Shown: one piece after another, positions 4,092 to 63,339 of the stretch
Layout: every line of letters starts with the position of its first letter
Position numbering within the stretch: the first letter of the stretch is position 1
DNA from: Diplonema papillatum
Lineage: Eukaryota > Euglenozoa > Diplonemea > Diplonemida > Diplonemidae
Direction of reading: 5' to 3'
Assembly (NCBI GenBank): GCA_030068145.1
Contig: JAPJBO010000025.1
Location: forward strand, 288,501 to 352,500
DNA: 64,000 nucleotides
Program-made: the position numbers and the translations under genes
Notes under the pieces: model-generated
The model's input: the letters and a program-made list of their open reading frames with translations, nothing else
What the model was told of the DNA's origin: nothing
Databases searched by the model: none

Positions 4092-7000
4092 ATGTTCGCC
4101 ATCCGTGCCGCTGCGAGAGCCACGATCGCTGTTGCGCCTGTGGCTGCTGTTCAGCTCCGAGCAGCCAGCAAGGCAGCAGTGAAGAAGGTGTCACCGAAGA
4201 AGAAGGTTTCGGCCAAGAAGGTGGCACCGAAGAAGAAGGTTTCGGCCAAGAAGGTGGCACCGAAGAAGACAGCTGTGAGGAAGGCAGCCAAGAAGGCGAT
4301 TGTAGCGAAGAGGGCAGCAGCGAAGGTGGCCAAGGCTGCGAAGAAGGCGGCAGCGAAGAAGGCCAAGGCTGCGAAGGTTGCAAAGAAGGCTGCGGCAAAG
4401 AAGGCCAAGATTGCGAAGAAGGCTGCGGCAAAGAAGGCCAAGGTTGCGAAGAAGCAGGCAGCATCGGCGAAGAAGGCAGAAGCAAAGAAGGCCAAGGCCG
4501 CAAAGAAGAAGGCCGCAGTGCTGAAGAAGAAGGCCGCAGCTGCGAAGAAGGCAGCGGCTAAGAAGGCGAAGCTTGCGAAGTTGAAGGCGAAGAAGGCCGC
4601 TTCTCCTGCTAAGAAGAGGGCAGCACTTGCCAGAAAGAGAGCTGCGGCGAAGAAGAACAAACTGGCCGCGCAGAAGAAGGCAGCGGCTTTGAGAAAGAAG
4701 GCAGCGTTGGCGAAGAGGAAGGCAGCCGTGCAGGCGAAGAAGGCGAAGCTGGCAGCCAAGAGAAAGGCTGTTGCGGACAAGAAGAAGGCCATCAGGGCTG
4801 CAGGTGCTTCCAACCCGTACAGCCTGTTCATTGCCAAGACCACGAAAGGCAGCAAGGGCACAGCCAACTTGAAGGATGTCGCTGCGAAGTGGAAGGTATG
4901 GCCGCTGCTCATGCTCCACCATAGGGTTCACGAATCCGACAAAACGGGCTTAAACTTCGGATGTGCAGCGTGTTTTGATAGTTGATCAGACAAGATGGTT
5001 GATCACTCGGACACCTGAAGTCAGCTCTCCATTCATCCCGCGTCGCCAGTCCTGCCTACTAGAAAGGGCTCGCTCAAAACCAGGATTCTACATCGGGGTT
5101 CAGTGATCCGAGCTCACGCCCATTTAAAGTTTGAGAACAGGTCGAGGAAGCGATTTACCCAGTGCCCCCAATAATTTGCTTTACCTGGCGTAACTCCTGT
5201 TCTCGTTCTAGCTATCCTGAGGGAAACTTCGGAGTGAACCAGCTACTAGATGGTTCGATGGGTCTTTCGCCCCTATACCCAGCTTTTGACGAGCGATTTG
5301 CACGTCGACGCCGCAACGGACCTCCACCAGGGTTTCCCCTGCCTTCGTCCTATGCAGGCATAGTTCACCATCTTTCGGGTCCCAACCAGTGTACTTAACC
5401 TCAAATCCCTTTCCAGTAAATCAGGATCGGGCTGTGCTGCGTCCTCAAGGATTGGCACATCTGCGGCTTGTGGGTTTGACACCCTAAGCCTCGCACACGT
5501 GTTGGACTTCTTGGTCCGTGTTTCAAGACGGGTAGTAGAAGATCACTGTAACTGGCATGAGCCTGCGAGCGTTCAAGCACGTCAGGCCAGCGGGAGCAAG
5601 GACGTTGTCCGAAGACGCCGACACTTACCCTTCGCTGACGATGCCGCGGGTCACCTCCTCAACTCGTTTCTATCCTGGTCGATCCGAGCAAAGCTGAGGC
5701 AGCCGGCAACCCGTCTCGCAACGTAGTTCCACAAGGTGAAGTGACCCATCCACCCAAAACGAGCGGCGCCTTTCTCAAGAGTTTCGTCGGCGAATCGCAA
5801 CGCGTTAGGGGACCCTCACAAGGTTTCACGACGGAGTGACCCGTCTACCCGAAACGAGCTGCGACCTCTCACTGCTTTCAACTCTTTCAACACCCCCCTG
5901 TCCCCACGCCTCTACACGGTGAGGTCTCCGCTCACCAGAAGCTAAAGTAAGAGATAGAGGGTGTGCTCGAGTCACACCCGAGCACACCCTCTCGGGCAAA
6001 TGCTAAAATGTGCGGCAATAAGAGCTCGTCACTCGCACAACCGCGGCTGATACAAAACTAATGATGGTGATGATGATGTGAAGAGAGAGTTGTTTTCGTT
6101 GAACGCAGTGCCTGATCGTTTTTTACGTAAAGCTGGATTCAGGACGCAAGTAAAAACGCCACGGTTTGCGGCGACGAGCTTCTCATTTCCTCCAACATTT
6201 CATGTTTGGTAAAAATAAAATGAGGCTAGACTCCACCGTGTACGGTCAACCGGAGACGTTTAAAACACCGACCTAGGGTCGGAATAACGCCAGGAACCCC
6301 TTTGGATGACCAATTCCACGCAATCACAAACAGAGCATGCCGGCACCGCAGAAGGCGCAGTACGTCGCTGAAGCCAAGAGGAACGCCGCCCAGAGGCAGA
6401 AGGTCAAGGCGAGCTTCAAGAAGGTGCGCCCCCCCGCCTGTATTTTCTTGTGTTAACAATGCATTGTTGGTACTAAAAAATTAGTAGGTTGGCAGCGTAC
6501 TACATGAAACTTACCAAAAAGCAGGTGAGTTCCACTGGTGCGCACAAACAAATTCTTCAGTTACAATCGCAACGCATTTTCATTGCGAAAATCTTCAGTT
6601 ACAGTCGCGATTGTAGGCCTACGCATTTTCACTACAAGAATCCTCAGTTACAACCGTAAGGCATTTCATTACAAAATCTTCACTTACAATCGCAACGCAT
6701 TTTCATTGCGAAAATCTTCAGTTACAGTCGCGATTGTCATTTTCACTGCAAGAATCCTCAGTTACAATCGTAAGGCATTTCATTACAAAATCTAGTTACA
6801 ATCGCAACGCATTTCCATTACGAAAATCTTCAGTTACAGTCAGCTTTGGACGAGCGATTTGCACGTCAACACCACAACGGACCTCCACCAGGGTTTCCCC
6901 CGGCTTCGTCCTATGCAGGCATAGTTCACCATCTTTCGCCAACCAGTGTACTTAATCTCAAATCCCTTTCCAGTAAATCAGGATCGGGCTGTGCTGCGTC

Positions 7001-13000: not shown

Positions 13001-14594
13001 ACAAACTTTTAGAGGTTGTCCCACCTCGAAAGCAAGCTTTTAGAGGTTGTCCCACCTCGAAAACAAGCTTTTAGAGGTTGTCCCACCTCGAAAGCAAGCT
13101 TTAAGAGGTTGTCCCATCTCGAATACAAACTTTTAGAGGTTGTCCCACCTCGAAAAAAAAAAAGAAAAAAAAAAAAACATTTTTAAAAAAACACGGCGGA
13201 CAACGGCGTGGCACAGTCGTCAGTTGACGACGTTCCTTACCTACGGGTGGGAGGTTCGGTTCCCGCCGGTGGACTTTTTTCCGGGTCTGCACTCAGCATC
13301 AAAGGTTCACCAGGGGCGGTCCGGAGGGGCCCTCCCCCCTGGATAAGGGCCCGCAACTTGCCATCATCAAGGTTTTCCGGGGGGGGGTCCGGGGTACGCG
13401 CCCCGAACTTGCTATCATCCCAACCGAACTTGCCATCAGGGTTCAACGGGTTCGGGTTTTCACAAACGCCGAACTAGACAAAAAGGTTCGGGTTTGCACC
13501 AACGCCGGACCTGGGCAAAAGGTGCGGATTTGCACCAACGCCAGGCTGAGCAAAACAATTCGGGTTGGACAAACCGGACCGGCAAGAAGCTTCGGGTTTG
13601 CACAACGCCCGACTGGGCAAACGGTTCGGGTTGCACAAACGCTGGACTGGACAAAAAGGTTCGGGTTTGCACAAACGCCGAACTGGACAAAAAGGTTCGG
13701 GTTTGCACCAACGCCGGACCTGGGCAAAAGGTGCGGATTTGCACCAACGCCAGGCTGAGCAAAACAATTCGGGTTGGACAAACCGGACCGGCAAGAAGCT
13801 TCGGGTTTGCACAACGCCCGACTGGGCAAACGGTTCGGGTTGCACAAACGCTGGACTGGACAAAAAGGTTCGGGTTTGCACAAACGCCGGACTGGGCAAA
13901 AAGGTTCGGGTTTGCACAAACGCCGGACTGGACAAAAAGGTTCGGGTTTGCACAAACGCCGGACTGGACAAAAAGGTTCGGGTTTGCGCAAACGCCGGAC
14001 TGGACAAAAAGGTTCGGGTTTGCACAAACGCCGGACTGGACAAAAAGGTTCGGGTTTGCACAAACGCCGGACTGGGCAAAAAGGTTCGTGTTTGCACAAA
14101 CGCCGGACTGGGCAAAAAGGTTCGGGTTTGCGCAAACGCCGGACTGAGCAAAAGGTTACCTCTAGACTCGCTATGGGTGGTCCTAACACCCATGTACTTT
14201 GGCGTCATCCCATACTGTATGCCGGCACCGAAACACTGTCTGTGCGGCCCAAAACGGGCCCTAAACGGTTTTTGGCGGGTTAAGTGAAGGTAAAGGGGCC
14301 TCAGAAGGCCCACAAGTGGTCCCAGATGGGGTTTCGGGGCCAGTAAGGGGTGACGTCGAAAAGTATTTTATTCGTGCAAAGGGGAGGGGGGGGGGTTTGG
14401 CATCGTCTCATACACCTACCTTTAACTCACGATACCGCCCAAAACCCCTGCAGGCACCGACGAAGTACGCACTGTACGTGAAGCAGAACTTCGCCGCTGC
14501 GTACGCCGCCGCCTCGAGGAAGACGAACGACAGAAAGCAGGCCTTCAAGATGGCCACCAAAGAAGTCGCGATGAAGTACAAGAGCAGCCAGTGA
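4092..14594 (+). CDS. Copy 1: mitochondrially targeted H1-like/HMG-box-like DNA-binding protein, 3 exons (344 aa)
   Basis: Exons are 4092-4895, 6334-6423 and 14454-14594; all junctions are phase 0 with GT donors (GTATGG, GTGCGC) and CAG acceptors. Residues 1-25 (MFAIRAAARATIAVAP...) are Arg/Ala-rich without acidic residues, as in mitochondrial presequences. Residues ~30-238 are Lys/Ala repeats (AKKAKAAKK type) like histone H1 tails or kinetoplast-associated proteins. Residues 239-298, from exons 1 and 2, resemble an HMG box: NPYSLF, then DVAAKWK, then KAQYVAEAKRNAAQRQKV. Residues 299-344 form a shorter second module ending KSSQ. This copy keeps Trp in AAKWK, and its exon 2 begins SMPAPQ instead of NLSSAE. 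Intron 2 is 8,030 bp and holds a whole retrotransposon, so correct splicing is uncertain. A candidate trans-splice AG is at 4033-4034, 58 nt before the start. Role in packaging mitochondrial DNA is inferred. Confidence 0.8.
5030..5660 (-). pseudogene. Antisense 28S (LSU) rRNA fragment in intron 1 of copy 1
   Basis: Read on the minus strand this follows eukaryotic 28S rRNA (5' half): the CTTGAAACACGGACCAAG block (complement near 5511-5528), the CCGAAAGATGGTGAACTATGCC block near 5357-5378, GGTGGAGGTCCG near 5319-5330, GACGTGCAAATCG near 5288-5300, then TATAGGGGCGAAAGACC, the CATCTAGTAGCTGG block, CCCTCAGGATAGC, and finally GCGGGATGAA near 5032-5041. Several tracts diverge from a normal 28S, and no neighbouring 18S or 5.8S is visible. 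It is therefore a fragment, not an rDNA unit. The 5' edge (high coordinate) is approximate. Confidence 0.85.
5957..5991. other. Perfect 13-bp hairpin
   Basis: GAGGGTGTGCTCG at 5957-5969 pairs perfectly with CGAGCACACCCTC at 5979-5991 across a 9-nt loop. It sits in intron 1 of copy 1, downstream of the antisense 28S piece. It could be an rRNA spacer helix carried along with that piece, or an independent hairpin element. Nothing else is recognised between 5750 and 6330. Confidence 0.6.
6334..6423 (+). CDS. Exon 2 of copy 1
   Basis: This 90-nt open segment is bounded by CAG (6331-6333) and GTGCGC (6424). It encodes 30 residues, SMPAPQKAQYVAEAKRN...KASFKK, colinear with exon 2 of the other seven genes. 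The last two thirds match the HMG-box third helix seen in the paralogues. Its first six residues differ from the NLSSAE of most copies, making it the most divergent exon 2 in the array. It is listed separately because the distance to exon 3 is 8 kb. Confidence 0.75.
6541..6842. repeat. Degenerate tandem repeat of about 112-123 bp
   Basis: The block TTACAATCGCAACGCATTT recurs at 6561, 6684 and 6796. Each is followed by a CATT(T)CATT..AAAATCTTCAGTTAC segment and related half-units. It lies at the start of the 8-kb intron 2 of copy 1 and abuts the second antisense 28S fragment. Short ORFs read through it are products of the repeat and are not called. Confidence 0.7.
6841..7093 (-). pseudogene. 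Second antisense 28S rRNA fragment (intron 2 of copy 1)
   Basis: This is colinear with about 5279-5528 of the first antisense fragment: the GACGAGCGATTTGCACGTC block, the CCATCTTTCG block, the TCAGGATCGGGCTGTGCTGC block, and TTGGTCCGTGTTTCA at the end. It lacks the GGGTCC after CCATCTTTC and carries an extra CCCTTTCAGT. The two fragments are therefore separately diverged copies, not a fresh local duplication. Both run antisense to the host gene. Confidence 0.8.
7110..8230. other. Intron sequence with dispersed repeat pieces
   Basis: No gene is recognised. The motif TTGGTGTCGGTCACAAA occurs near 7520 and again near 8110, and a variant recurs near 20357. A CACGGAGACCC..AAGCGAAC..AACTCTAAAAA segment (about 7640-7700) resembles 3580-3640. 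AAAGAACTCAATGCTCAACTTGTAG at 7455-7480 resembles the 3' tail of the non-LTR element at 12190-12215. These look like eroded mobile-element pieces. Confidence 0.45.
8232..12144 (+). mobile_element. Non-LTR retrotransposon, nearly full-length ORF inside intron 2 of copy 1
   Basis: The open frame begins after a TAG at 8229 and the reverse transcriptase ORF runs to 11840. Comparing its tail with the 3' fragment at 3040-3240 shows that the reading continues in another frame to TAA at 12142-12144, ending LDLDDAIAGDDVIR. One frameshift therefore lies near 11.75-11.83 kb. The 3' UTR begins at 12145 and holds a segment repeated at 39646-39725. No apurinic-type endonuclease domain is visible upstream, so the copy is either 5'-truncated or belongs to a clade with another endonuclease. 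The insertion is sense relative to the host gene. Confidence 0.85.
8379..11840 (+). CDS. Reverse transcriptase of non-LTR element (1153 aa from first Met)
   Basis: RT motifs appear in order: SGVDGWR near residues 146-152; PITVTSAVYRLW near 207-218; GFRPGHRIED near 238-247; ALDFRKCFD with the first catalytic Asp at residue 272; NGILQGCP; and SYADD with catalytic YADD at residues 363-366. A thumb-like region follows. Near residues 695-725 is a C-x2-C...H-x4-C knuckle (CKHCGSGDTEDEKHVFWDC) typical of zf-RVT domains. The C-terminus (about 980-1090) has unusual tandem Cys/His clusters (HHKGKCEAC, CCRHHHH, KCGECK, CCRSGHH, TCQECK, CCSRGHH), then a basic tail. The frame stays open through all RT motifs, so this copy is recent. 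The true start may lie upstream, since the frame is open from 8232. Confidence 0.85.
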   Translation: MKDGQGTEGFPDHEEAKQLLTALREETSRLGKEGSAARFTKYRDKLNERADASRRCLTTICAGRAEPSGVLRKGAGVTANVDEMDEVLNTAWDPILRKYKDGPEPEYEPFRDRFRDHIGPHMMEAGTITGEELRILLRKKPKKSASGVDGWRMAELRELPLPLLNALADVMNLVEATGDWPASMTTALVSMVPKDESQDPLHTRPITVTSAVYRLWACRRLADIVLWQEEWIEEGQKGFRPGHRIEDVLMEIGLEMEDALLDGEPLYGVALDFRKCFDMVPREIVLRLAEDLGLHNRVLKPLRAIYRLLARRFKLPLGVGREFSVTNGILQGCPVSVILINALLSVVMKAVKKEAEGVSPKSYADDATLLSRLSEAALQKGVDVVDEFCTLTGMELNLQKTVAFSTRRRHQSTLKLRSVDALLRFSKSVKCLGVLVSTAKNRTERSDSERVEKAAALAEGLRHAPFRYEKRVRIVQSNVLPAALSGCSFAPVSKVAMKRLTTSVMGLIWGGSNPKRAREMVLNFQEKGHLTDPGTCLAYRVTTAFYAACERLPRLLPLMESIRGRYAEGDLPLGPVGLAMRSMEECGHVWGPGPLSRTLRNGATYDPLTSAPSKRGHEVRADLRAKTWSRLVARRPGFEGIQRADLERTNSFWRMRECPAHTARLIRVALAGGVNTAEYTSRMRQAGAEPQAPSCKHCGSGDTEDEKHVFWDCGAYSHIRRREAHAELMAANRADWPRCTLEHGVVVPENAQFSRRLQEMMAEILAERAGLEARGWVARNPTTPWSRANAMPAEKFDHPFARIAPAWTWERNKTWGLPTFYALVAWLSDMQWTENGQASMLELAIDFELFSGLSMPLHGNAPKGVRERGNVLRCMMSALDKLAAQQGLGSCMRGERVCPTTSLSFMGITGISGIRPRPRFREAHTGTILEEQVKGSDVGTQCPTYPDWTIGRAARWALPAPPQLHPDPVHMPGVGIEKALVTCATHHKGKCEACRALVRRDVPTVEMCCRHHHHANDGQPIAVCTEHSTTKCGECKTAAACCRSGHHACRTHGRGTCQECKRLPTLTQRRPAACCSRGHHQSNKPNVQSTPGRNKKKRPSSPTQVGVQRETPVGKRAARARERRSRQRKRRRRRPDGRPRGRHQRQEPANDQR
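12145..12240 (+). repeat. 3' UTR of the non-LTR element
   Basis: The segment GTGCATGTTAATCCACGTGG, TTCATGTACTTAAAAGAACT, CAATGCTTAAC...CACGTGGGCGG recurs at 39646-39725 with few changes. An older relative is at 3255-3300. This marks the element's 3' end, and it allows solo tails elsewhere to be recognised. Confidence 0.65.
12420..12572 (+). repeat. Dispersed ~150-bp repeat (also at 31010-31160)
   Basis: TTCTCCCCGTGATGGATT, then CCTGTGCTCTAGTAGCACGG, TCCTGGCTGTGACGAG, CAGCCGCCTG and CACCGCTGTCCTGTCTGCAG, ending CGCGCTGATGATGG. It is almost identical to 31010-31160. A shorter related piece is at 15042-15075. GTGCT..AGTAGCAC inside forms a small hairpin. No coding frame is shared. Confidence 0.7.
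12853..13155. repeat. 31-bp minisatellite, about 10 copies
   Basis: The unit TTTTAGAGGTTGTCCCACCT followed by CGAAAACAAAC repeats with a 31-bp period from AGAGG at 12856 to 13135. Units differ mainly at AAAACAAAC versus AAAGCAAGC. It lies in intron 2 of copy 1 between the retrotransposon and the next minisatellite. Confidence 0.9.
13440..14160. repeat. GGTTCGGG minisatellite with 209-bp higher-order block
   Basis: Units of about 36-40 bp contain GGTTCGGGTTTGCACAAACG and CCGGACTGGACAAAAA. A divergent multi-unit block starting GGTGCGGATTTGCACC occurs at 13521 and again at 13730, a 209-bp higher-order spacing. The rest are near-identical simple units. Long ORFs exist in several frames on both strands only because the repeat lacks stops; none is called as a gene. 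Confidence 0.9.
14192..14412 (-). mobile_element. MITE, inverted partial copy of the 885-1163 element
   Basis: Reverse-complement match to the MITE at 885-1163. The outer inverted repeat (GATGCCAAACCC, C/T tract, AATAAAATAC, GACGTCA) is kept at the 14412 end. At the 14192 end it stops just after the GACGTCA block. It ends about 40 bp before exon 3 of copy 1. Confidence 0.75.
14454..14594 (+). CDS. Exon 3 of copy 1 (second HMG-like module and stop)
   Basis: It begins after CCTGCAG at 14447-14453 and runs APTKYALYVKQNF...EVAMKYKSSQ to TGA at 14592-14594. It is nearly identical to exon 3 of copies 3-7, so it is under constraint or recently homogenised despite lying behind an 8-kb intron. No other exon 3 lies between copies 1 and 2, and the phase fits, which is why it is assigned to copy 1. 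The inverted MITE at 14192-14412 ends only about 40 bp upstream and may have displaced the usual branch-point region. Confidence 0.75.
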   Translation, partial: APTKYALYVKQNFAAAYAAASRKTNDRKQAFKMATKEVAMKYKSSQ

Positions 14595-20544: not shown

Positions 20545-23500
20545 ATGAACACCCTCCGCGTTGTGAGAGCTTCGGCTGCTGCGTTCGCGCCTGCAGCAGT
20601 CATGCAGGTGCGAGCTGCCAGCAAGGCAGCTGCCGTGAAGAAGGTTTCGGCTGGCAAGAAAGTGGCGACGAAGAAAGTCAGCGCGAAGAAGCCCGCAGCC
20701 AAGAAGGTGGTGGCAGCAAAGAAGGTCCAGGCGAAGAAGGCTGTGAAGAAGACGGCCGTGAAGAAGGTTGTGGCAAAGAAGGTTGCGAAGAAGGCAGCCA
20801 AGAAGACGGCAGCAGTGAAGAAGGCAGCAGCAAAGAGGGTGAAGGCTGCGAAGGCTGCGAAGACAGCTGCCAAGAAGGCGAAGGCCGCGAAGAAGCAGGC
20901 CGCAGTGGCGAAGAGGGCAGACGCAAAGAAGGCCAGGGCTGCCAAGAAGGCGGCAGCCAAGAAGGCCAAGGCTGCGAAGGTTGCAAAGAAGGCTGCGGCA
21001 AAGAAGGCCAAGATTGCGAAGAAGCAGGCAGCCGTGGCGAAGAAGGCAGAAGCAAAGAAGGCCAAGGCCGCAAAGAAGAAGGCCGCAGTGCTGAAGAAGA
21101 AGGCAGCAGCTGCGAAGAAGGCAGCAGCTAAGAAGGCGAAGCTTGCTAAGTTGAAGGCGAAGAAGGCCGCTTCTCCTGCTAAGAAGAGGGCACTTGCCGC
21201 GAAGAAGGCGAAGGCTGCGGCACAGAAGAAGGCAGCACTTGCCAGAAAGAGAGCTGCGGCGAAGAAGAACAAATTGGCCGCGCAGAAGAAGGCAGCGACT
21301 TTGAGAAAGAAGGCTGCGTTGGCGAAGAGGAAGGCAGCCGTGCAGGCGAAGAAGGCGAAGCTGGCAGCCAAGAGAAAGGCTGTCGCGGACAAGAAGAAGG
21401 CCATCAAGGCTGCAGGTGCTTCCAACCCGTACAGCCTGTTCGTTGCCAAGACCACGAAAGGCACCAAGGGCAAGATGAGCTTGAAGGATGTCGCTGCAAA
21501 GTGGAAGGTGTGTATCCAGTCACTAGCGAACGAACCACTCCTCTCTGGCTATATTGACCACTTGGACTGGATGCGCTCTCTCCAACTCTAAACGGATCCA
21601 TTCGAGAGTCACAGAGCCCAGCGGCAGTGGGTCGTGTGTACCATGCCTAGCAGTCAGCTTAGTGTGAGTTTGATCAACGTAGGATCAAGACAGCCCTTTC
21701 AAAGACCAGCCACAGTCGACGCCGCGGGGGTGCTGGTTTTAGATACCGTACCTTCCCCCCATCCAAAGGACCCACTGATGAGCTCTAACTCTGGATTGGT
21801 CTGCGTTCACGAGCGAAACCCGAGACGAAGAACGAGGTGCACACAACACCGCGGTGAAAAACAATAAAGAGGACTAGTCCCTCAAGGGTTCATACCCTAC
21901 CTGCGGAGTCTTACACTCCCCGCGACCCCTTTTCCCTTTTCCCTTTTCTATTTTACACTCTCTTCGAAGAAGACTTGATGCTAGCATCAAACGTGCATGA
22001 GAGGCAGTGTCCTGCCAAACATTAAACTAAGATTCCCCCCCCCTTTTTAACTTACGAAGGAAGGATGCGACGAACAATGAAACCAGAAAGTTGTGATAGC
22101 ACCGGAACAGGACCGAAAGTCCCCATCCAAAGGACCCACTGATGAGCTCTAACTCTGGATTGGTCTGCGTTCACGAGCGAAACCTGAGACGAAGAACGAG
22201 GTGCACACAACACCGCGGTGAAAAACAATAAAGAGGACTAGTCCCTCAAGGGTTCATACCCTACCTGCGGAGTCTTACTCCCCGCGACCCCTTTTCCCTT
22301 TTCCCTTTTCTATTTTACACTCTCTTCGAAGAAGACTTGATGCTAGCATCAAGCATGCATGAGAGGCAGTGTCCTGCCTAAACATTAAACTAAGATTTTC
22401 CCCCCGTGCATAAGATGGATGAAAAACTCGGGGTTTGGCGGTATCCATCATAATTAAGGGGGGTACCTCACCCCCGTGTTTAAGATGGATTGGCATCCTC
22501 GCCCGATATCGATCTTAATCAAGGGGGTTTGGCTATCCATCTTATGCACCGGGGGGGGGGGGGGGGGGGCGCACTAAGGAATTGGGGGGTGCAACGGGCA
22601 ACGTCAACGTCTGCTAAATTTGGAAGGGGGGGGGGGGGGGGTCCTGTTTGGCGCACCTGGTGGCCGGGCACCCCCCCACCCTTTTTTCCGGGGACCCCCT
22701 TAAACGCGCTCTTTCGCGATGGATCTTTCCACTCCGTCCTCAGTTCGTCTGTGAGGCCTGAAATTTGACGTGCAAAACACAGGCTGAAACCGGGAAAATC
22801 TGCCCTTTCGTGGTTTTCTTGGTGCCGTTTTTTCGAAATTCTCTAAGTACGTTTCCCAGCGGATTTGCCTGAAAAACAGTTTTTGGGGGGTATTGGCATT
22901 TTGGGGAAAGCACATGGTAAATCGGCCCAATCGGCCCGAATTTTCACTTTTTGGGCCAATTTTCCAGATTTTGGCTGATTTTTGAGTGCATTGCAGGAAT
23001 CTTGGTTTTCGGGGAAACTGACTTTGCCCAAAAGTTGCTAAGTACATTTCCCTGCCAAAAAAGTGCAGGAAAACATTTTGGTGGGGAATGACCTTTTTTT
23101 CCGCAAAAGTGGGTTTCGATTTCGAAAACGAGGAGAACGGATTCATCTGGAGGAAACGGAGTACCCACTCGGCACCGGGGGGTCTGGGAAACACCCCAAA
23201 AACAGCCCCCAAAACGACCCCCCCCTACTTCATCCCCCAAAACCATCCCAACAACAACGACCCCCCCCCCCAAAAAAAAAAAAAAAGGGGGGTGCAACGT
23301 GCAACGGGGGCAACGTCCCTTAGTGCGCACCCTGGGGGGGGGGACCCCCGGCAGTGTTCCAGGTAAATGGTAAACGTTTACCGTTTATAAACGTTTACGT
23401 TTACTCATTTTTGGAGTAAACGTTGAGTAAGCGTTTACTGTATCAAGGGCGGCATCCATTGGAAACGCAATCTATCAAGGAAGAGGGGCAACTAAGTAAA

Positions 23501-36552: not shown

Positions 36553-38977
36553 ATGTTCGCCATCCGTGCCGCTGCGAGAGCCACGATCGCTGTTGCGCCT
36601 GTGGCTGCTGTTCAGCTCCGAGCAGCCAGCAAGGCAGCAGTGAAGAAGGTGTCACCGAAGAAGAAGGTTTCGGCCAAGAAGGTGGCACCGAAGAAGACTG
36701 TTGCCAAGGTTCAGAAGAAGACAGCTGTGAAGAAGGTTGTGGCAAAGAAGGTTGCGAAGAAGGCAGTCAAGAAGGCGGTTGTAGCGAAGAAGGCAGCGGC
36801 GAAGATGGCCAAGGCTGCCAAGAAAGCGGCAGCGAAGAAGGCCAAGGCTGCGAAGGTTGCAAAGAAGGCTGCGGCAAAGAAGGCCAAGATTGCGAAGAAG
36901 CAGGCAGCCGTGGCGAAGAAGGCAGAAGCAAAGAAGTCCAAGGCCGCGAAGAAGAAGGCCGCAGTGCTGAAGAAGAAGGCAGCTGCTGCGAAGAAGGCAG
37001 CAGCCAAGAAGGCGAAGCTTGCGAAGTTGAAGGCGAAGAAGGCAGCTGCTTCTCCTGCTAAGAAGAGGGCACTTGCCGCTAAGAAGGCAGCAGCTAAGAA
37101 GGCTGCGGCACAGAAGAAGGCAGCACTTGCCAGAAAGAGAGCTGCGGCGAAGAAGAACAAACTGGCCGCGCAGAAGAAGGCAGCGACTTTGAGAAAGAAG
37201 TCAGCGTTGACGAAGAGGAAGGCAGCCGTGCAGGCGAAGAAGGCGAAGCTGGCAGCCAAGAGAAAGGCTGTCGCGGACAAGAAGAAGGCCATCAAGGCTG
37301 CAGGTGCTTCCAACCCGTACGCCTTGTTCGTTGCCAAGACCACGAAAGGCAGCAAGGGTAAGATCAACTTGAAGGATGTCGCTGCGAAGTACAAGGTGTG
37401 TATTCTGTTTGTCATCGGAGAAGCTCTCTCACAGAAAGATTCGTAGCTTCGCACAACCTTCGAAGTTGCTCATCATGAGTTTGGCATCGATAGTCGAAGA
37501 AGGTGGGTTGTTTGTATCGCGTGTCCTTTTCACTCACTTTGTTTGTTCCGCTTTGTTGTGTGTGGACAGACCTGCTGCTGCTGCGGGTGACTGCTTTGAC
37601 CGCTGGCTTTGTCGCTTGCACAAAGACCGTAGCACCAACCTCTAAATGATTTCCTACTGACTACCGTCGTAATGTAATTGGATTACTGTTAAAAATGGGA
37701 GCTGGGCGTCCCAGGTTTTACCCGGGTGCGGCATTGTTTTTTTCGGAGTTTGCGACTTTGCGTACTTTGCAGAATATCGCGACCCTTGTGCTTGCCGGTG
37801 CTCAATACCCCTAGATGCCGCTGTCATAAAAGGCTGCAGGTCCATCACTGGTGCAGTCACGCTCCCCCGGGTGTCCCAGGTTTTACCTGGTCTGTCATTT
37901 ACCCGTCCAGCTTTAGTTCAACATTATTCCAATTATATACTCTAAGTAGGAAAATAAACTAGTTTCTTTGAAGACTAACAATAATCCGAACGACAGGTTT
38001 GCGGTTCCAATCCGTCCAGAGAAACAAAGTAGCTTACTTCCCCTCCTTCCCTTCCCACTTGCTTCATTTTTCTTCGGAGTTCCCGTGGCACCTCATGAAG
38101 TGGTCAGCAGCAAGATTAGCAGCTTTCTTCTGGCTTCACCTTTTAAAGGGGGGGGACGAGAGTGACAGACACAAGCATAGGAGTGAGGATTTTATTATTG
38201 AAAAGTATGCCAATACTGCAGGGTATAGTTGACTAGACCTCTTGAGTTTGTGCCAACCACGAATTGGGGAGTCGGGAGAACCCCACCTACAAAGCCAAAA
38301 GCAGGACCGACCCCCCCGTTCGTGAGAAAAAGCGAAGAATAAAAACACCTTCTTTTTTCCATCTATCTGTGTTAAGAGCCGCAACTCAACTATTATTGGG
38401 CGGGACAAGTAGCTGCTTCGGAATAACGGATGCCAAGAAACTCCACACAGAACCTTTCGCCTACGGAGAAGGCGCAGTACTCTGCCGAAGCAAAGAAGAA
38501 CAGCGCCGCAAGGCAGAAGGTGAAGGCAAGCTTCAAGAAGGTATGCGTTTGCTTTTACCCTGTGCGTGTGCTTTGTTGGCGTATGAACCAACCGGCTGTG
38601 GGTCGTATATATATATATTGGTGCCCAGTTGAGCCCCATGCTATCACAAAGCTAACAACCACGTGTCTAGTTACTGCTCAACTCACCCTCAAACCTCGGG
38701 TGACTGATACACACGTGTGAATGATCCGCCTCTTTGTTGGTTGTAGTTGTTTGCCCTCACCATCAAGGTCAGGATCATGAGGCAGAAGCTCCATGTTGCT
38801 TGGCAATTCTCACTCGCCCACCCTCCACAGGCGCGGGCACCGACGAAGTACGCACTGTACGTGAAGCAGAACTTCGCCGCTGCATACGCTGCCGCCTCCA
38901 AGAAGACTAACGACAGAAAGCAGGCCTTCAAGATGGCCACCAAAGAAGTCGCGATGAAGTACAAGAGCAGCCAGTGA
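36553..38977 (+). CDS. Copy 4: mitochondrial H1-like/HMG-box-like protein, 3 exons (359 aa)
   Basis: Exons are 36553-37395, 38451-38540 and 38831-38977. Exon 2 reads NLSPTEKAQYSAEAKK. The usual exon 3 acceptor TGCAG is lost here (GCGCGGGCACCG), and the nearest AG is CCACAG at 38825-38830. Exon 3 is therefore 147 nt and adds Ala-Arg before APTKYALYVK, still in frame. Residues 252-311 are the first HMG-like module (AAKYK form) and 312-359 the second, including the extra Ala-Arg. The Lys/Ala domain carries AAASPAKKR and a KKAAAKKAAAQ variant shared with copy 5. Candidate trans-splice AG: 36490-36491, 62 nt upstream. Confidence 0.85.
37620..38450. other. Intron 1 of copy 4, second half; carries a segment shared with 57000-57170
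   Basis: AGTATGCCAATACTGCAGGG, TATAGTTGACTAGACCTCTT, GAGTTTGTGCCAACCACGAA, TTGGGGAGTCGG onward (38195-38350) is repeated at 57008-57160. A GTCCCAGGTTTTACC motif occurs twice (37708 and 37872). No gene is recognised. The 3' 70 bp before exon 2 (TAGCTGCTTCGGAATAACGG) are conserved in copies 3-6. Confidence 0.6.
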
Positions 38978-43683: not shown

Positions 43684-45324
43684 ATGTTCGCCATCCGTGC
43701 CGCTGCGAGAGCCACGATCGCTGTTGCGCCTGTGGCTGCTGTTCAGCTCCGAGCAGCCAGCAAGGCAGCAGTGAAGAAGGTGTCACCGAAGAAGAAGGTT
43801 TCGGCCAAGAAGGTGGCACCGAAGAAGACTGTTGCCAAGGTTCAGGTGAAGAAGGCGAAGAAGACAGCCGTGAAGAAGGTTGCGGCAAAGAAGGTTGCGA
43901 AGAAGGCAGTCAAGAAGGCGGTTGTAGCAAAGAAGGCAGCAGCGAAGATGGCCAAGGCTGCCAAGAAAGCGGCAGCGAAGAAGGCCAAGGCTGCGAAGGT
44001 TGCAAAGAAGGCTGCGGCAAAGAAGGCCAAGATTGCGAAGAAGCAGGCAGCAGTGGCGAAGAAGGCAGAAGCAAAGAAGGCCAAGGCCGCGAAGAAGAAG
44101 GCCGCCGTGCTGAAGAAGAAGGCAGCTGCTGCGAAGAAGGCAGCAGCTAAGAAGGCCAAGATTGCTAAGTTGAAGGCGAAGAAGGCAGCTGCTTCTCCTG
44201 CTAAGAAGAGGGCACTTGCCGCTAAGAAGGCAGCAGCTAAGAAGGCTGCGGCACAGAAGAAGGCAGCACTTGCCAGAAAGAGAGCTGCGGCGAAGAAGAA
44301 CAAACTGGCCGCACAGAAGAAGGCAGCGACTTTGAGAAAGAAGGCAGCGTTGGCGAAGAGGAAGGCAGCCGTGCAGGCGAAGAAGGCGAAGCTGGCAGCC
44401 AAGAGAAAGGCTGTCGCGGACAAGAAGAAGGCCATCAAGGCTGCAGGTGCTTCCAACCCGTACGCCTTGTTCGTTGCCAAGACCACGAAAGGCAGCAAGG
44501 GCACGATGAACTTGAAGGATGTCGCTGCGAAGTACAAGGTGTGTATTCTGTTTGTCGGAGAAAGCTCTTTCACAGAAGGTTCACAGCTTTTCACAATTTT
44601 TGAATCTGCCATCATGAGTCTATCTAGGAATTGTATCGTGGTTTGTTGTTATCGCGTGCCAGTTTCACTTACCATCTGAATGACTTCGTACTGACATGGA
44701 TTCATGATCGTCTTCGGAAATATTGTATTCGACAAGAAAAGTAGCTGCTTCGGAATAACGGATGCCAAAAAACTCTACACAGAACCTGTCGTCTGCGGAG
44801 AAGGCGCAGTACTCTGCTGAGGCAAAGAAGAACAGCGCCGCGAGGCAGAAGGTGAAGGCAAGCTTCAAGAGGGTATGCGTTTGCTTTTACCCTTGTGTGT
44901 GAGCACACACAACATTGTTGTCATAAGAACCAGGCTGTGGTAGGCTTATTAGCACGGGTATGGTGCCCAGTTGAGTGCCTCTGATACCACACCTCTCCTG
45001 GCAACTTGCGGTGCTCAGCTCACCCCCAAACCTCGGGTTATGATGCACAGGTGTAAATAATCTGCCCTCTTTGTTGTTGTAGTCGTTTGCTCCCATCATC
45101 GAGATGATAGACCAGGATAAAGAGGCCGAATAGCGCTCCATGTTGCTTGGCAATTCTCACACGCCCACCCTCTACATATGCAGGCACCGACGAAGTACGC
45201 ACTGTACGTGAAGCAGAACTTCGCTGCTGCATACGCTGCCGCCTCGAGGACGACGAACGACAGAAAGCAGGCCTTCAAGATGGCCACCAAAGAAGTCGCG
45301 ATGAAGTACAAGAGCAGCCAGTGA
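43684..45324 (+). CDS. Copy 5: mitochondrial H1-like/HMG-box-like protein, 3 exons (361 aa)
   Basis: Exons are 43684-44538, 44783-44872 and 45184-45324, with compact introns of 244 and 311 bp. Relative to copy 3 the Lys/Ala domain has an extra VKKAK after KVQ (shared with copy 6) and the AAASPAKKR and AAAKKAAAQ forms (shared with copy 4). First HMG-like module 256-315 (GTMNLKDVAAKYK then NLSSAEKAQYSAEAKK, ending KASFKR); second 316-361 with SRTTNDRKQ. Candidate trans-splice AG: 43623-43624, 60 nt upstream. Directly upstream is the 169-bp satellite. The mix of copy 4 and copy 6 features suggests gene conversion. Confidence 0.87.
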
Positions 45325-46381: not shown

Positions 46382-46383
<2 letters not shown>

Positions 46384-46801: not shown

Positions 46802-47018
46802 GGGACGAGTGGGCCAACAACAGCGTCAGTGAAGGGACGAGTGGGCCAACAACAGTGTCGAGTGGGCCAACAACAGTGTCAGTGAAGGGACGAGTGGGCC
46901 AACAACAGTGTCAGTGAAGGGACGAGTGGGCCAACAACAGTGTCAGTGAAGGGACGAGTGGGCCAACAACAGTGTCAGTGAAGGGACGAGTGGGCCAACA
47001 ACAGTGTCAGTGAAGGGC
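46802..47018. repeat. 32-bp minisatellite, about 7 copies
   Basis: Unit GGGACGAGTGGGCCAACAAC plus AGTGTCAGTGAA at a 32-bp period, with one 21-bp short unit near 46860. It abuts the hAT fragment. Confidence 0.9.
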
Positions 47019-49961: not shown

Positions 49962-51562
49962 ATGTTCGCCATCCGTGCCGCTGCGAGAGCCACGATCGCT
50001 GTTGCGCCTGTGGCTGCTGTTCAGCTCCGAGCAGCCAGCAAGGCAGCAGTGAAGAAGGTGTCACCGAAGAAGAAGGTTTCGGCCAAGAAGGTGGCACCGA
50101 AGAAGACTGTTGCAAAGGTTCAGGTGAAGAAGGCGAAGAAGACAGCCGTGAAGAAGGTTGCGGCAAAGAAGGTTGCGAAGAAGGCAGTCAAGAAGGCGGT
50201 TGTAGCGAAGAAGGCAGCAGCGAAGATGGCCAAGGCTGCGAAGAAGGCAGCAGCCAAGAAGGCCAAGGCTGCGAAGGTTGCAAAGAAGGCTGCAGCAAAG
50301 AAGGCCAAGATTGCGAAGAAGCAGGCCGCAGTGCTGAAGAAGAAGGCAGCTGCTGCGAAGAAGGCAGCAGCTAAGAAGGCGAAGCTTGCGAAGTTGAAGG
50401 CGAAGAAGGCCGCTTCTCCTGCTAAGAAGAGGGCACTTGCCGCGAAGAAGGCGAAGGCTGCGGCACAGAAGAAGGCAGCACTTGCCAGAAAGAGAGCTGC
50501 GGCGAAGAAGAACAAATTGGCCGCACAGAAGAAGGCAGCGACTTTGAGAAAGAAGGCAGCGTTGACGAAGAAGAAGGCAGCCGTGCAGGCGAAGAAGGCG
50601 AAGCTGGCAGCCAAGAGAAAGGCTGTCGCGGACAAGAAGAAGGCCATCAAGGCTACAGGTGCTTCCAACCCGTACAGCCTGTTCGTTGCCAAGACCACGA
50701 AAGGCAGCAAGGGCAAGATCAACTTGAAGGATGTCGCTGCGAAGTACAAGGTGTGTATTCTGTTTTGTCATCGGAGAAGCTCTCTCACAGAAGGGTTCGT
50801 AACTTCCCACAATATTCGAATCTGCTTGCCATCATGAGTTTGGCATCAGTAATCGATGAAGGTGGTTTGTTTGTATCCCGTTGGTTGCACTCACGTTGTT
50901 TTTTCCGCTTTGTTGTGTGTGGACCTGCTGCGGTTGACTGCTCCTGGTGACCGAATGCTTGCACGAAAACCGTGGCACCAACCCCGAAATGACTTCCTAC
51001 CATCTTCGGAAATATATAATGGGCAAGAAAAGTAGCTGCTTCGGAGCAACGAATGCATAACTCTACACAGAACCTGTCGTCTGCGGAGAAAGCGAAGTAC
51101 GCTGCCGAAGCAAAGAAGAACAGCGCCGCAAGGCAGAAGGTGAAGGCAAGCTTCAAGAGGGTATGCGTTTGCCTTTAACCTGTGCGTGAGCGTCGTTGTC
51201 GTATGCACCAGGCTGTGATTTGTTTATTATCATACCACAAAGCTAACAATACCCGTGTCTTAGTTACTGTACTCAACTCACCCCGGGTGGCTGATACAAC
51301 GTGTGAATGATGCGCCTCTTTGTTGTTGTAGTTGCCCTCACCATCAAGATCAGGATCATGAGGCTGAATTGAGCTCCATGTTGCTGGGCAATTCTCACTC
51401 GCCCACCCTCCACATGTGCAGGCACCGACGAAGTACGCACTGTACGTGAAGCAGAACTTCGCTGCTGCATACGCTGCCGCCTCCAGGAAGACGAACGACA
51501 GAAAGCAGGCCTTCAAGATGGCCACCAAAGAAGTCGCGATGAAGTACAAGAGCAGCCAGTGA
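49962..51562 (+). CDS. Copy 6: shortest H1-like/HMG-box-like mitochondrial protein (339 aa)
   Basis: Exons are 49962-50750, 51071-51160 and 51422-51562. It lacks the AVAKKAEAKKAKAAKKK segment found in copies 3-5 and 7, going straight from KIAKKQ to AAVLKKKAAAAKK; this is an in-frame deletion of about 24 residues in the Lys/Ala domain. Other differences: ALTKKKAAV and IKATGASNPYSLF. First HMG-like module 234-293 (AAKYK form, ending KASFKR), second 294-339. Candidate trans-splice AG: 49900-49901, 61 nt upstream. Introns are 320 and 261 bp. The sequence before exon 2 lacks the GGATGCCAAAA of other copies (GCAACGAATGCATAAC). Confidence 0.86.
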
Positions 51563-52271
51563 ACGGTCTTTTGAACCACCTCCTTTACGCCCCGCTCGCT
51601 CTCTACCTGTTTTGAAGTGATGACCAGGGGCTGACACTCAGGTTGCAGGCTTCTGATATTCCGCCAGAGCTGACGGGACACGTGAACACGGTCCGTTCCA
51701 ATCCAGGTCTTCCAACTTCCCCTTTTTTCAAACGATCGGCTCACGAGCTCTTCTGTATCCCCTGTCCCCCAGTTAGAACCACCCCTATTCCCCATCAAAA
51801 AAAGATGATCTTGAAAGGTTGGGGCTGGGGCGGACCGACGACGAACCTGAAAACTGTCTGAAGGTACTCAGAATGACAATGCGAGCTGAGATGTCCTTCT
51901 GTTGATCGTCCGTCTCCCACCCCTTCCTTTCTCTCTGTACAGTTCCCATTTTCCTTTCTCCCGGTGTGGTGTGTCAGGGCTACTCTCTAGCTATCGAGCT
52001 AACGAGGTTCATGCCAACGACTGCATTGCCGCATTGTTCCTGCCAGGACAGGTACCAAAACAGTCCCAACACGCCTGACGAGAAGCCTGGCCCACCACGT
52101 CACGTTGCATTTTCTTGTCTTCTCTTGATTACGAAGTTGTGACTCGACCCAGCGAAATGCCAAAACTTCCATGCTCCCGTTTTCTAGTCTCTGCTTGAAA
52201 GTAACTTCACTGAATGCATCCATTGAACCCGATCCCAAGCTAATGCCGGCGTGCAGTCAGCGGGTCTACTA
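51563..52271. other. Shared 3' flank after copy 6, cut by the VIPER-like element
   Basis: 51655-52260 is the conserved block, running parallel to 39080-39945 to the words GTGTG/GTGCAG..CAGCGGGTCTAC. At 52272 the sequence changes abruptly to the end of a minus-strand RT frame, which places the element boundary at base-level precision. Confidence 0.7.
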
Positions 52272-53740: not shown

Positions 53741-53749
53741 TCCCGTCAG

Positions 53750-55191: not shown

Positions 55192-56796
55192 ATGTTCGCC
55201 ATCCGTGCCGCTGCGAGAGCCACGATCGCTGTTGCGCCAGTGGCTGCTGTTCAGCTCCGAGCAGCCAGCAAGGCAGCAGTGAAGAAGGTGTCACCGAAGA
55301 AGAAGGTTTCGGCCAAGAAGGTGGCACCGAAGAAGACGGTTGCCAGGGTTCAGAAGAAGACAGCTGTGAAGAAGGTTGCGGCAAAGAAGGTTGCGAAGAA
55401 GGCAGTCAAGAAGGCGGTTGTGGCGAAGAAGGCAGCAGCGAAGATGGCCAAGGCTGCGAAGAAGGCGGCAGCGAAGAAGGCCAAGGCTGCGAAGGTTGCA
55501 AAGAAGGCCGCGGCAAAGAAGGCCAAGATTGCGAAGAAGCAGGCCGCCGTGGCGAAGAAGGCAGAAGCAAAGAAGGCCAAGGCCGCAAAGAAGAAGGCCG
55601 CAGTGCTGAAGAAGAAGGCAGCAGCTGCGAAGAAGGCAGCAGCTAAGAAGGCGAAGCTTGCGAAGTTGAAGGCGAAGAAGGCCGCTTCTCCTGCTAAGAA
55701 GAGGGCACTTGCCGCGAAGAAGGCGAAGGCTGCGGCACAGAAGAAGGCAGCACTTGCCAGAAAGAGAGCTGCGGCGAAGAAGAACAAACTGGCCGCGCAG
55801 AAGAAGGCAGCGACTTTGAGAAAGAAGGCTGCGTTGGCGAAGAGGAAGGCAGCCGTGCAGGCGAAGAAGGCGAAGCTGGCAGCCAAGAGAAAGGCTGTCG
55901 CGGACAAGAAGAAGGCCATCAAGGCTGCAGGTGCTTCCAACCCGTACCGCCTGTTCGTTGCCAAGACCACGAAAGGCAGCAAGGGCAAGATCAACTTGAA
56001 GGATGTCGCTGCGAAGTACAAGGTGTGTATTCTGTTTGTCATCGGAGAAGCTCTCTCACAGAAAGCTTCGTAGCTTCCCACAATCTTCTAAGGTGCTATC
56101 ATGAATTTGACATCAGTAATCGAAGGTGGCGTATTAATTTCACTCACTTTGTTTGTTTCCGCTTTGTTGTATGTTGACAGACCTGCTGCTGCGGTTGACT
56201 GCTCCGATCTGTCGCTTGCACGAAGACCGTAGCACCAACTCCTAAACGAGAAACTCTACACAGAACCTTTCGTCTGCGGAGAAGGCGCAGTACGCTGCCG
56301 AAGCAAAGAAGAACAGCGCCGCAAGGCAGAAGGTGAAGGCAAGCTTCAAGAGGGTATGCGTTTGCTTGAACCCTGTGTGTGTGCGCACGCAACATTGTTG
56401 TTGTATGAACCAGGCTGTGGTTCGTTTATTATTATTGAAGTGCCCAGTCCCAGTTGAATGCCTCACAAACCTAAGAATCCACGTGTCTATTACTGTGCTC
56501 AACCCCCAAACCTCGACCTTGACTGATACACACGTGTGAATAATCCGCCCCTTTGTTGTAGCTGTTTACCTATACCATGAAGGTCAGGATCATAAGGCTG
56601 GATTGAGCTCCATGTTGCTTGGCAATTCTCACTCGCCCACCCTCCACATGTGCAGGCACCGACGAAGTACGCACTGTACGTGAAGCAGAACTTCGCTGCT
56701 GCATACGCTGCCGCCTCCAGGAAGACGAACGACAGAAAGCAGGCCTTCAAGATGGCCACCAAAGAAGTCGCGATGAAGTACAAGAGCAGCCAGTGA
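55192..56796 (+). CDS. Copy 7: mitochondrial H1-like/HMG-box-like protein, 3 exons (353 aa)
   Basis: Exons are 55192-56022, 56264-56353 and 56656-56796; introns are 241 and 302 bp. It has the same length as copy 3 and nearly the same sequence, differing at KTVARVQ (copy 3 KTVAKVQ), KKAVKKAVV and NPYRLFVAK, where Arg replaces Ala or Ser at the start of HMG helix 1. First HMG-like module 248-307 (AAKYK, ending KASFKR), second 308-353. The candidate trans-splice AG is 59 nt upstream (55132-55133). The last ~20 bp before exon 2 (AACTCTACACAG) match the others, but the rest of intron 1 is shortened. Confidence 0.87.
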
Positions 56797-60761: not shown

Positions 60762-63339
60762 ATGTTCGCCATCCGTGCCGCTGCGAGAGCCACGATCGCT
60801 GTTGCGCCTGTGGCTGCTGTTCAGCTCCGAGCAGCCAGCAAGGCAGCAGTGAAGAAGGTGTCACCGAAGAAGAAGGTTTCGGCCAAGAAGGTGGCACCGA
60901 AGAAGACTGTTGCCAAGGTTCAGAAGAAGACAGCTGTGAAGAAGGTTGTGGCAAAGAAGGTTGCGAAGAAGGCAGTCAAGAAGGCGGTTGTAGCGAAGAA
61001 GGCAGCAGCGAAGATGGCTAAGGCTGCGAAGAAGGCGGCCAAGGCTGCGAAGGTTGCAAAGAAGGCAGAAGCAAAGAAGGCCAAGATTGCGAAGAAGCAT
61101 GCCGCCGTGGCGAAGAAGGCAGAAGCAAAGAAGGCCAAGGCCGCAAAGAAGAAGGCCGCAGTGCTGAAGAAGAAGGCAGCTGCTGCGAAGAAGGCAACAG
61201 CTAAGAAGGCGAAGCTTGCGAAGAAGCATGCCGCCGTGGCGAAGAAGGCAGAAGCAAAGAAGGCCAAGGCCGCGAAGAAGAAGGCCGCAGTGCTGAAGAA
61301 GAAGGCAGCTGCTGCGAAGAAGGCAGCAGCTAAGAAGGCGAAGCTTGCGAAGTTGAAGGCGAAGAAGGCCGCTTCTCCTGCTAAGAAGAGGGCACTTGCC
61401 GCTAAGAAGGCGAAGGCTGCGGCACAGAAGAAGGCAGCACTTGCCAGAAAGAGAGCTGCGGCGAAGAAGAACAAACTGGCCGCACAGAAGAAGGCAGCGA
61501 CTTTGAGAAAGAAGGCAGCGTTGGCGAAGAGGAAGGCAGCCGTGCAGGCGAAGAAGGCGAAGCTGGCAGCCAAGAGAAAGGCTGTCGCGGACAAGAAGAA
61601 GGCCATCAAGGCTGCAGGTGCTGCTAACCCGTACGCCTTGTTCGTTGCCAAGACCACGACAGGCAGCAAGGCCAAGATCAACTTGAAGGATGTCGCTGCG
61701 AAGTGGAAGGTGTGTATCGTGATAGCCATAACCGGGGGAGAAAGCAAGGCCAACAACAGCTGAGAATGTTTGCATCCCGCTAGCCGGGGTACAAAAAGTG
61801 CTCGGGACAGAAATCGAACCTCCCCGGCTCAGGTAGCCAACACCACCAATGACGGTGCCAATAAAAGCAAACATAGGGACCATAGACCATCCTTGGCGCG
61901 GTTGTTTGCTTTAGCTTTGTTCCATGGTAGAGCAAAAGTTATCCTAATACCGTCCCTCAAAGGCACGAGAAGATGTTAAAATTACACAAAGTAGTACAAC
62001 GAAAAGTAAAAGACCCTTTGCCTCCGCTGCAAAACTTGCTAGCGGAGGTAGGTTTTGATTGTCCCGTTCTGTTTCGCGGAACTGTTTGCATCCGGATACG
62101 ATACGGAACTGTTTCATCCGGATATGATACGGGACTGTTTACATCCGGATACGATACGGAACTGTTTCATCCGGATATGATACGGAACTGTTTCATCCGG
62201 ATACGATACGGAACTGTTTCATCCGGATATGATACGGGACTGCTTACATCCGGATACGATACGGAACTGTTTCATCCGGATACGATACGGAACTGTTTCA
62301 TCCGGATACGATACGGAACTGTTTCATCCGGATACGATACGGAACTGTTTCATCCGGGTATGATACGGAACTGTTTGCATCAGGATACGATACGGAACTG
62401 TTTCATCCGGATATGATACGGGACTGTTTACATCCGGGTATGATACGGAACTGTTTGCATCAGGATACGATACGGAACTGTTTCATCCGGATATGATACG
62501 GGACTGTTTACATCCGGGTATGATACGGAACTGTTTGCATCAGGATACGATACGGAACTGTTTCATCCGGATACGATACGGGACTGTTTACATCCGGGTA
62601 TGATACGGAACTGTTTGCATCAGGATACGATACGGAACTGTTTCATCCGGATATGATGCGGAACTGTTTGCATCCGGATATGATACGGGACTGCAGGTGG
62701 GTTGTTTGCCTGGTGCATTGGAGTCACTCGCTTTATTCGTTTCTGGATCTTCCGCGGTGCTTTCCTACTATGGCCTACCGCTTGTATTTCTCAGTACAGG
62801 AGGTCCAGCACGACGACCCTCTACACGTTTTCTTCCGAACCGGATTTGCAAAGCTGTAGAGACCCTGCACGGTAGTGTCAAGAACCTCTACACAGAACCT
62901 GTCGTCTGCGGAGAAAGCGAAGTACGCCGCCGAAGCAAAGAAGAACAGCGCCGCAAGGCAGAAGGTGAGGGCAAGCTTCAAGAAGGTATGCGTTTGCTTT
63001 TCCCCGTGTGTGTGCACTATGGCAACGTTGTTGCCATAGTGGCAATCTGGTGCCCAGCTCACCCAAAACCAGAGGGCTGAAACACACCTCTTTTTCATTT
63101 TAGTTGCCGGACCCTCCGTCAAGACGAACGCACATGGCTCAATTGAGCTCCAGTTTTGTTGGCAATAATTCGCATTCACCCACCCTCCACATGTGCAGGC
63201 ACCGTCGAAGTACGCACTGTACGTGAAGCAGAACTTCGCTGCTGCATACGCTGCCGCCACCAGGAAGACGAACGACAAGAAGCAGGCCTTCAACATGGCC
63301 ACCAAAGAAGTCGCGATGAAGTACAAGAGCAGCCAGTGA
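60762..63339 (+). CDS. Copy 8: H1-like/HMG-box-like mitochondrial protein with internal duplication (392 aa)
   Basis: Exons are 60762-61709, 62896-62985 and 63199-63339. The Lys/Ala domain holds an in-frame direct duplication: AKKHAAVAKKAEAKKAKAAK then KKAAVLKKKAAAAKKA(T/A)AKKAKLAK appears twice, adding about 42 residues; the repeat begins with His, seen only here. Like copies 1 and 2 it has AAKWK. First HMG-like module 287-346 (GAANPYALF; KVRASFKK), second 347-392 (APSKYALYVK, TRKTNDKKQAFN). The candidate trans-splice AG is at 60701-60702. Intron 1 (1,186 bp) carries a 26-bp minisatellite. The frame is open upstream to 60099, but the conserved presequence sets the start at 60762. Confidence 0.85.
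62080..62695. repeat. 26-bp minisatellite in intron 1 of copy 8, about 23 copies
   Basis: Unit GATACGGAACTGTTTCATCC plus GGATAC, with variants GGGACTGTTTACATCC and GAACTGTTTGCATCAGG arranged in repeating groups. The 147-aa frame 61973-62416 is a repeat artefact. Introns 1 of copies 5-7 are under 330 bp and lack it. Confidence 0.93.

Follow-up and report, generated by a model that had tools for sequence, protein, structure and literature searches.

Using a 64,000-nucleotide window of the genome of the marine protist Diplonema papillatum (contig C25, positions 288501-352500), we identified eight genes for lysine- and alanine-rich proteins, in each of which a presequence and a Lys/Ala domain are followed by an HMG box and then by a short last module. 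All eight lie head-to-tail on the + strand, from the first ATG at 4092 (gene 1) to the last stop at 63339 (gene 8), and for 8 of 8 we obtained an uninterrupted model of three exons, with all joints in phase 0. An initial annotation of the window had described eight such genes with products of 339-397 aa, and our start, stop and lengths agree with it; our search of the 271 Mb genome further showed that the array itself holds 17 genes, from C25:292592 to 396216, and that the window contains its first eight. The + strand carries 17 of the 17 array models and every listed match on this contig. The exons in the window are as follows.

4092..4895 (+): gene 1 exon 1, presequence, Lys/Ala domain and HMG helices 1-2; product 344 aa
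6334..6423 (+): gene 1 exon 2, HMG helix 3
14454..14594 (+): gene 1 exon 3, short second module and stop; intron 2 is 8030 bases
20545..21507 (+): gene 2 exon 1, presequence unlike that of the other seven; product 397 aa
29842..29931 (+): gene 2 exon 2; intron 1 is 8334 bases
30264..30404 (+): gene 2 exon 3
32440..33270 (+): gene 3 exon 1; product 353 aa
34291..34380 (+): gene 3 exon 2
34696..34836 (+): gene 3 exon 3
36553..37395 (+): gene 4 exon 1; product 357 aa (359 with the shifted acceptor)
38451..38540 (+): gene 4 exon 2
38831..38977 (+): gene 4 exon 3, acceptor AG shifted 6 bases upstream, adding Ala-Arg
43684..44538 (+): gene 5 exon 1; product 361 aa
44783..44872 (+): gene 5 exon 2
45184..45324 (+): gene 5 exon 3
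49962..50750 (+): gene 6 exon 1; product 339 aa
51071..51160 (+): gene 6 exon 2
51422..51562 (+): gene 6 exon 3
55192..56022 (+): gene 7 exon 1; product 353 aa
56264..56353 (+): gene 7 exon 2
56656..56796 (+): gene 7 exon 3
60762..61709 (+): gene 8 exon 1, Lys/Ala domain of 263 residues with a 129-base repeat unit; product 392 aa
62896..62985 (+): gene 8 exon 2
63199..63339 (+): gene 8 exon 3

The three exons divide each protein at the same places. Exon 1 encodes the presequence of 25 residues and the Lys/Ala domain, and then runs through half of the HMG box as far as an A-K-Y/W-K motif; exon 2, of 30 codons, encodes the remainder of this box; and exon 3, of 46 codons plus the stop, encodes the short last module. 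Intron 1 splits the HMG box, with helices 1-2 in exon 1 and helix 3 in exon 2. Donors are GT in 16 of 16 introns of the window, and acceptors are AG at the homologous position in 15 of 16, the exception being intron 2 of gene 4, where GG stands at the usual place and an in-frame AG occurs 6 bases upstream. Across all 20 complete models that we built, donors are GT in 40 of 40 cases and acceptors AG at the homologous place in 39 of 40, with gene 4 again the exception.

Outside the array we found relatives on four contigs, namely a close copy (C648), diverged copies on C20 and C685 (two on the latter) and a broken one on C831, which together with the 17 array genes brings the total to 22 loci. 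One of the two C685 copies gives a 302-aa model identical in every letter to DIPPA_15346 of Diplonema papillatum (P0001), confirming the diplonemid host that had been proposed from the sequence. The other C685 copy has an exon 1, seemingly interrupted, perhaps by an extra intron, and an exon 2, and no exon 3 was found within the 10-kb stretch read; a partial N-terminal duplicate lies approximately 450 bases upstream, near position 3543 of C685:28000-37999. The relative in C831:80000-89999 is a diverged exon 1 whose frame shifts before the HMG part, and tblastn at E ≤ 1 found neither exon 2 nor exon 3 in these 10 kb, so that this locus is a degenerate copy or an assembly error. Towards the far end of the array, genes 12, 14 and 16 have coding sequences that are 99.8-100% identical and introns that are 99.9-100% identical, and the coding sequences of genes 11, 13 and 15 are 99.5-99.8% identical. 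Since both sets are nearly identical in this alternating order, we conclude that a two-gene unit was duplicated recently, although the near-identity of genes 11-16 may instead reflect an assembly effect.

Protein searches extended the family to two transcript translations from eukprot, P0002 and P0003. The first search retrieved no array gene and only 2 of 83 candidates, DIPPA_15346 (the C685 copy) and P0002; a second, with P0002 as the query, gave P0002 and P0003 alone out of 122 candidates; and a third, with the C20 copy as the query, found nothing at E ≤ 1 among 961 candidates. We do not take this last miss as evidence of absence, because P0001 is clearly similar to the C20 copy.

Analysis of the N-terminus demonstrated a charge pattern that differs from that of the remainder of the protein. 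The first 24-26 residues contain 3-4 Arg, no Lys and no Asp or Glu in all 20 models, and the rest of the protein contains 62-121 Lys and 7-17 Arg. The presequence is the same over 25 residues in 17 of the 20 models; 19 have R-A-A|S at its end, and the C685 model has R-M-A|S; by eye, the homologues P0002 and P0003 end theirs in R-C-A|S and R-W-A|S. We take the R-A-A|S end to fit the R-3 processing motif. The initial annotation gave all eight window genes the same kind of Arg/Ala presequence; that of gene 2 differs from that of the other seven. On this evidence the proteins of the family probably enter the mitochondrion, and the probable targeting claimed in the initial annotation, which this Lys-free, acid-free Arg presequence with its R-x-A|S end supports, is also a published prediction (PMC12699882).

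The Lys/Ala domain measures 210-268 residues in the eight window genes, slightly wider than the 200-250 residues first reported, with Lys and Ala making up 0.62-0.65 of residues and a net charge of +83 to +104. For example, in gene 3 an arm of 224 residues carries +88 and the entire precursor +112. The description of this domain as histone H1-like stands for its composition, which resembles that of an H1 tail, and does not extend to a linker-histone domain: the N-terminal 249 residues of the gene 3 protein matched 0 Pfam families at E ≤ 1, and so no H1/H5 domain. A linker histone proper, with its winged-helix globular domain, was thereby ruled out.

The first C-terminal module was compared with known folds using a profile of eight sequences (six from Diplonema and two from eukprot). 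Searched against PDB sequences, this profile matched box B of TFAM (E 1.5e-9) and Abf2 (1.3e-4), the first 11 solved matches being mitochondrial HMG proteins, followed by HMGB, SOX, MLL3, SMARCE and TOX entries. All 24 PDB matches listed at E ≤ 0.01 are, judging by their names, HMG-box chains. With a profile built from the entire C-terminal part, TFAM came at 8.6e-6 and Abf2 at 1.6e-4; triosephosphate isomerase, which we regard as noise, entered the list from 0.1. Aligned by hhalign with three HMG-box pieces taken from printed alignments (two of TFAM and one of HMGB1, and as such not independent of the PDB search), the profile reached a probability of 96.9%, with a score reached by 0 of 60 shuffles. 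Among the Pfam HMG-box families (PF00505/PF09011), HMG_box matched 8 of 8 members of the profile at E ≤ 1 (best 1.6e-9). Individually, P0002 scored 30.9 bits for HMG_box, above the cut-off of 25.4, and the C20 copy 22.7 bits for HMG_box_2, above its cut-off of 22.4, whereas P0001 scored 17.7 bits for HMG_box, below 25.4; an NCBIfam scan gave no family for 4 of 4 proteins. We regard the identity of the first module as a true HMG box as settled at the level of sequence profiles, and the order of the solved matches suggests a special kinship with mitochondrial HMG proteins.

The second module, which had been described as another, shortened HMG module, is HMG-like and is not proven as a box by sequence. 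It starts with K-Y-A-L-Y-V-K like an HMG box and ends with K-Y-K-S-S-Q and the stop, at the point where intron 1 cuts the first box, before the expected HMG helix 3. The second module with an identical end is also present in P0001, P0002 and P0003, and because P0002 and P0003 are translations of transcripts, an error in the gene models is an unlikely cause of this end. Compared with the first box, the profile of the second module reached an hhalign probability of 24% and a score of 19.99, which 0 of 200 column shuffles reached (maximum 18.3) and which compares with 9.4 for a reversed-profile control; against the three HMG pieces it reached 7.8% and a score of 16.8 (0 of 60 shuffles, maximum 12.1), with only 18 columns, those of helix 1, aligned. 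No Pfam HMG family matched any of its 7 members at E ≤ 10, and its profile found no HMG match in PDB at E ≤ 10. ChaB (PF06150) matched 7 of 7 members weakly (best E 0.012, with 15.1 bits for the first member against a cut-off of 27), and a profile of 77 distinct bacterial ChaB sequences gave an hhalign probability of 1.9% and a score of 14.3, reached by 4 of 60 shuffles. We read this module as probably half an HMG box, perhaps a degenerate one, comprising helices 1-2, although it may be ChaB-like instead; if the former, it may descend from an HMG box by loss of the third-helix exon and have been conserved in that state.

All three protein parts are under purifying selection, with ratios of nonsynonymous to synonymous change (dN/dS) below 1; the values, by the method of Nei and Gojobori, are rough owing to short low-complexity alignments and to saturated dS in diverged pairs. 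Among the eight window genes dN/dS was 0.23 for the presequence (26 of 28 pairs usable), 0.19 for the Lys/Ala domain and 0.38 for the HMG part (28 of 28 each), and among the 18 close copies it was 0.20 (147 of 153 pairs), 0.19 and 0.37 (153 of 153 each), respectively, with a dN of 0.019 for the Lys/Ala domain over 153 of 153 pairs. Set against these 18 copies, the C20 copy gave 0.29, 0.29 and 0.24 (18 of 18 each), and the C685 copy 0.44 (17 of 18), 0.18 (17 of 18) and 0.22 (18 of 18). The coding sequences are closer than either intron in all four of the older gene pairs that we compared; for example, genes 3 and 4 are 97% identical in coding sequence and 51% in intron 1, and genes 5 and 7 are 97% and 59% identical. 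Because the frame is kept in 8 of 8 genes, dN/dS is below 1 and the introns of older pairs have diverged, we conclude that these genes are maintained, and the same three observations rule out chance or a repeat artefact.

The family has already been described in print. A study in BMC Genomics (December 2025; PMC12699882) reported 21 related mitochondrion-targeted proteins of D. papillatum with more than 60% Ala and Lys, three quarters of them with a C-terminal HMG motif, placed in the mitochondrion by a consensus of predictors; other diplonemids have a comparable number, and a role in replication or maintenance of mitochondrial DNA was proposed. The array genes are very probably this family, with which they share the organism, Ala+Lys above 60%, mitochondrial targeting and the C-terminal HMG motif, the counts of 22 loci here and 21 proteins there being compared by description and not gene by gene. 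The section of that paper on the family does not mention a tandem array, the exon structure, the second module or Glom, and the word “tandem” occurs three times in its main text, never about this family. To this description our analysis adds the array of 17 genes, an HMG box split between exons, the short last module and the tests made on it, the match of the first box to TFAM and Abf2 and the comparison with Glom.

This comparison overturns the earlier statement that no fusion of a histone H1-like arm with HMG boxes had been described, since, in addition to the Diplonema family itself in PMC12699882, Glom of Physarum polycephalum joins a Lys-rich N-terminal half to two C-terminal HMG boxes, according to the relevant passages of a 2020 review (PMC7463775); our finding thus corrects the idea that a Lys-rich arm with HMG boxes lacks precedent. 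As described in these passages, Glom resembles the Diplonema proteins as a mitochondrial nucleoid protein with this order of parts, but it has two HMG boxes where they have one box and at best half a box, and it has a proline-rich region whereas the Lys/Ala domain of the eight window genes holds 2-4 prolines. TFAM and Abf2, the best solved matches of the first box, are likewise mitochondrial HMG proteins, but have two complete boxes and no long Lys/Ala arm (in part after passages of PMC7463775). Closer to diplonemids, TbKAP6, a homologue of CfKAP4, is described as an HMG-box protein and the kinetoplast-associated proteins (KAPs) of Crithidia as H1-like (passages of reviews including PMC7463775); by these descriptions they share a basic or HMG-box character with our family and are proteins of euglenozoan mitochondrial DNA, whereas the passages concerned describe no fusion of HMG boxes with a long Lys/Ala arm. 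The open-licence literature yielded nothing on diplonemid KAPs, and among the open-licence matches listed there was nothing to the point on the Diplonema nucleoid.

We consider it likely that the locus is an array of nuclear genes that provides, by dosage, an abundant packaging protein for the mitochondrial DNA of D. papillatum, and the packaging role put forward in the initial annotation is plausible. The observed gene structure, array, conservation, charge and HMG homology of the first box are consistent with a protein that would be imported, bind DNA, be abundant and package it. The presequence would drive import, with a cut probably after R-A-A near residue 25. The Lys/Ala arm would act in the manner of the H1 C-terminal tail or of Glom's Lys-rich half, neutralising the charge of DNA and bridging it; the HMG box would hold DNA by its minor groove and bend it, as TFAM and Abf2 do; and the short last module, if it is a half HMG box, may provide another, weaker contact. 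With its many copies the array would make protein enough for approximately 260 Mbp of mitochondrial DNA circles. In polycistronic units, gene copy number is an obvious route to higher output, as inferred from kinetoplastids. Diplonema genes lie in long one-strand clusters, which are handled as polycistronic units in the relevant part of the genome paper. The mitochondrial DNA amounts to 256.4 ± 59.5 Mbp, as given in the corresponding part of the paper that measured it, i.e., to approximately 513 million phosphates, half of which would be neutralised by about 2.3 million molecules. The terms histone, HMG, packag and KAP are absent from the main text of the paper measuring its amount. The 17-gene array with its fixed anatomy offers clonable candidates, and the conserved putative half box a concrete deletion target.

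Several results weigh against a mitochondrial packaging protein. The presequence has an amphipathicity of 0.326, compared with a shuffle mean of 0.333, and a proportion of 0.497 of 2000 shuffles reach the real value. A whole-protein Pfam scan of a single array protein gives no match, and its C-terminal 116 residues score 16.7 bits for HMG_box, below the curated cut-off of 25.4. When only the box of P0002 is searched, an SRY/HMGB1 construct comes first (4e-7) and TFAM after it (5.6e-6), and because of this order the special kinship of the first box with mitochondrial HMG proteins is not established. In the relevant parts of PMC12699882, 10% of the mitochondrial proteins of DNA/RNA metabolism are detected by mass spectrometry, and these parts give no abundance for this family. 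The amphipathicity and the P0002 match both speak for nuclear chromatin proteins of an H1/HMGB-like kind, in which the Arg/Ala N-terminus merely resembles a presequence, as does the frequent occurrence of Lys/Ala arms and of HMG boxes in chromatin of the nucleus. We nevertheless think a nuclear role very improbable, given the Lys-free, acid-free start with R-x-A|S in 20 of 20 models, including the diverged copies, and in the two eukprot homologues, the published mitochondrial prediction (PMC12699882) and the mitochondrial HMG proteins that head the solved matches of the first box.

Within the mitochondrion, the protein might instead be an RNA-side factor, of the mitoribosome or of RNA editing/ligation, in which a basic arm is joined to a small helical domain. 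Basic Lys/Ala arms can bind RNA too. RNA processing in diplonemid mitochondria is described as very complex; against such a factor, which we judge improbable, stands the sole recognised fold, an HMG box, which binds DNA in its known mitochondrial members. It is also unlikely, in our estimate, that these proteins bind mitochondrial DNA not to package it in bulk but to serve a particular function on the many small circles, be it replication, recombination, decatenation or transcription, with different copies perhaps binding different circle classes. Three lines of evidence favour this reading: depletion of the HMG-box protein TbKAP6 lowers minicircle release and disturbs kinetoplast DNA (in the review passages concerned), PMC12699882 prefers a role in “replication and/or maintenance”, and the HMG part varies more than the Lys/Ala part relative to synonymous change (0.38 versus 0.19). 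However, the identical presequence of 17 models and the near-identical Lys/Ala domains of the array copies favour dosage over such a division of labour.

Other features of the window lie in introns and spacers of the array. Intron 2 of gene 1 contains, at 8379-11840 (+), a frame of 1153 aa with a reverse transcriptase domain (PF00078, E 8.2e-21), which looks like an inserted retroelement. Within intron 1 of gene 2, the region 24000-28000 is GC-rich (0.63 and 0.61) and holds several long open frames, some on each strand, of which the four tried gave no Pfam match at E ≤ 0.01; one idea is that it is a nuclear copy of GC-rich mitochondrial DNA. Tandem repeats occupy further introns and spacers, at 12853-13156 (31-base unit), 13449-14157 (36/209), 16535-16991 (95) and 62077-62693 (26/53/80), and a 169-base unit in 5.1 copies with 98% matches (42551-43405) lies immediately 5′ of gene 5. 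Between genes 5 and 6 there is a perfect run of 31 GCT copies (46289-46382) and a perfect 32-base repeat in 5 copies (46859-47017). Approximately 0.3-0.64 kb 3′ of the stops of genes 3-6, a conserved block with a pyrimidine-rich part recurs at 35473-35731, 39301-39559, 45639-45897 and 51856-52114, and may be a candidate for a role in trans-splicing or poly(A) addition.

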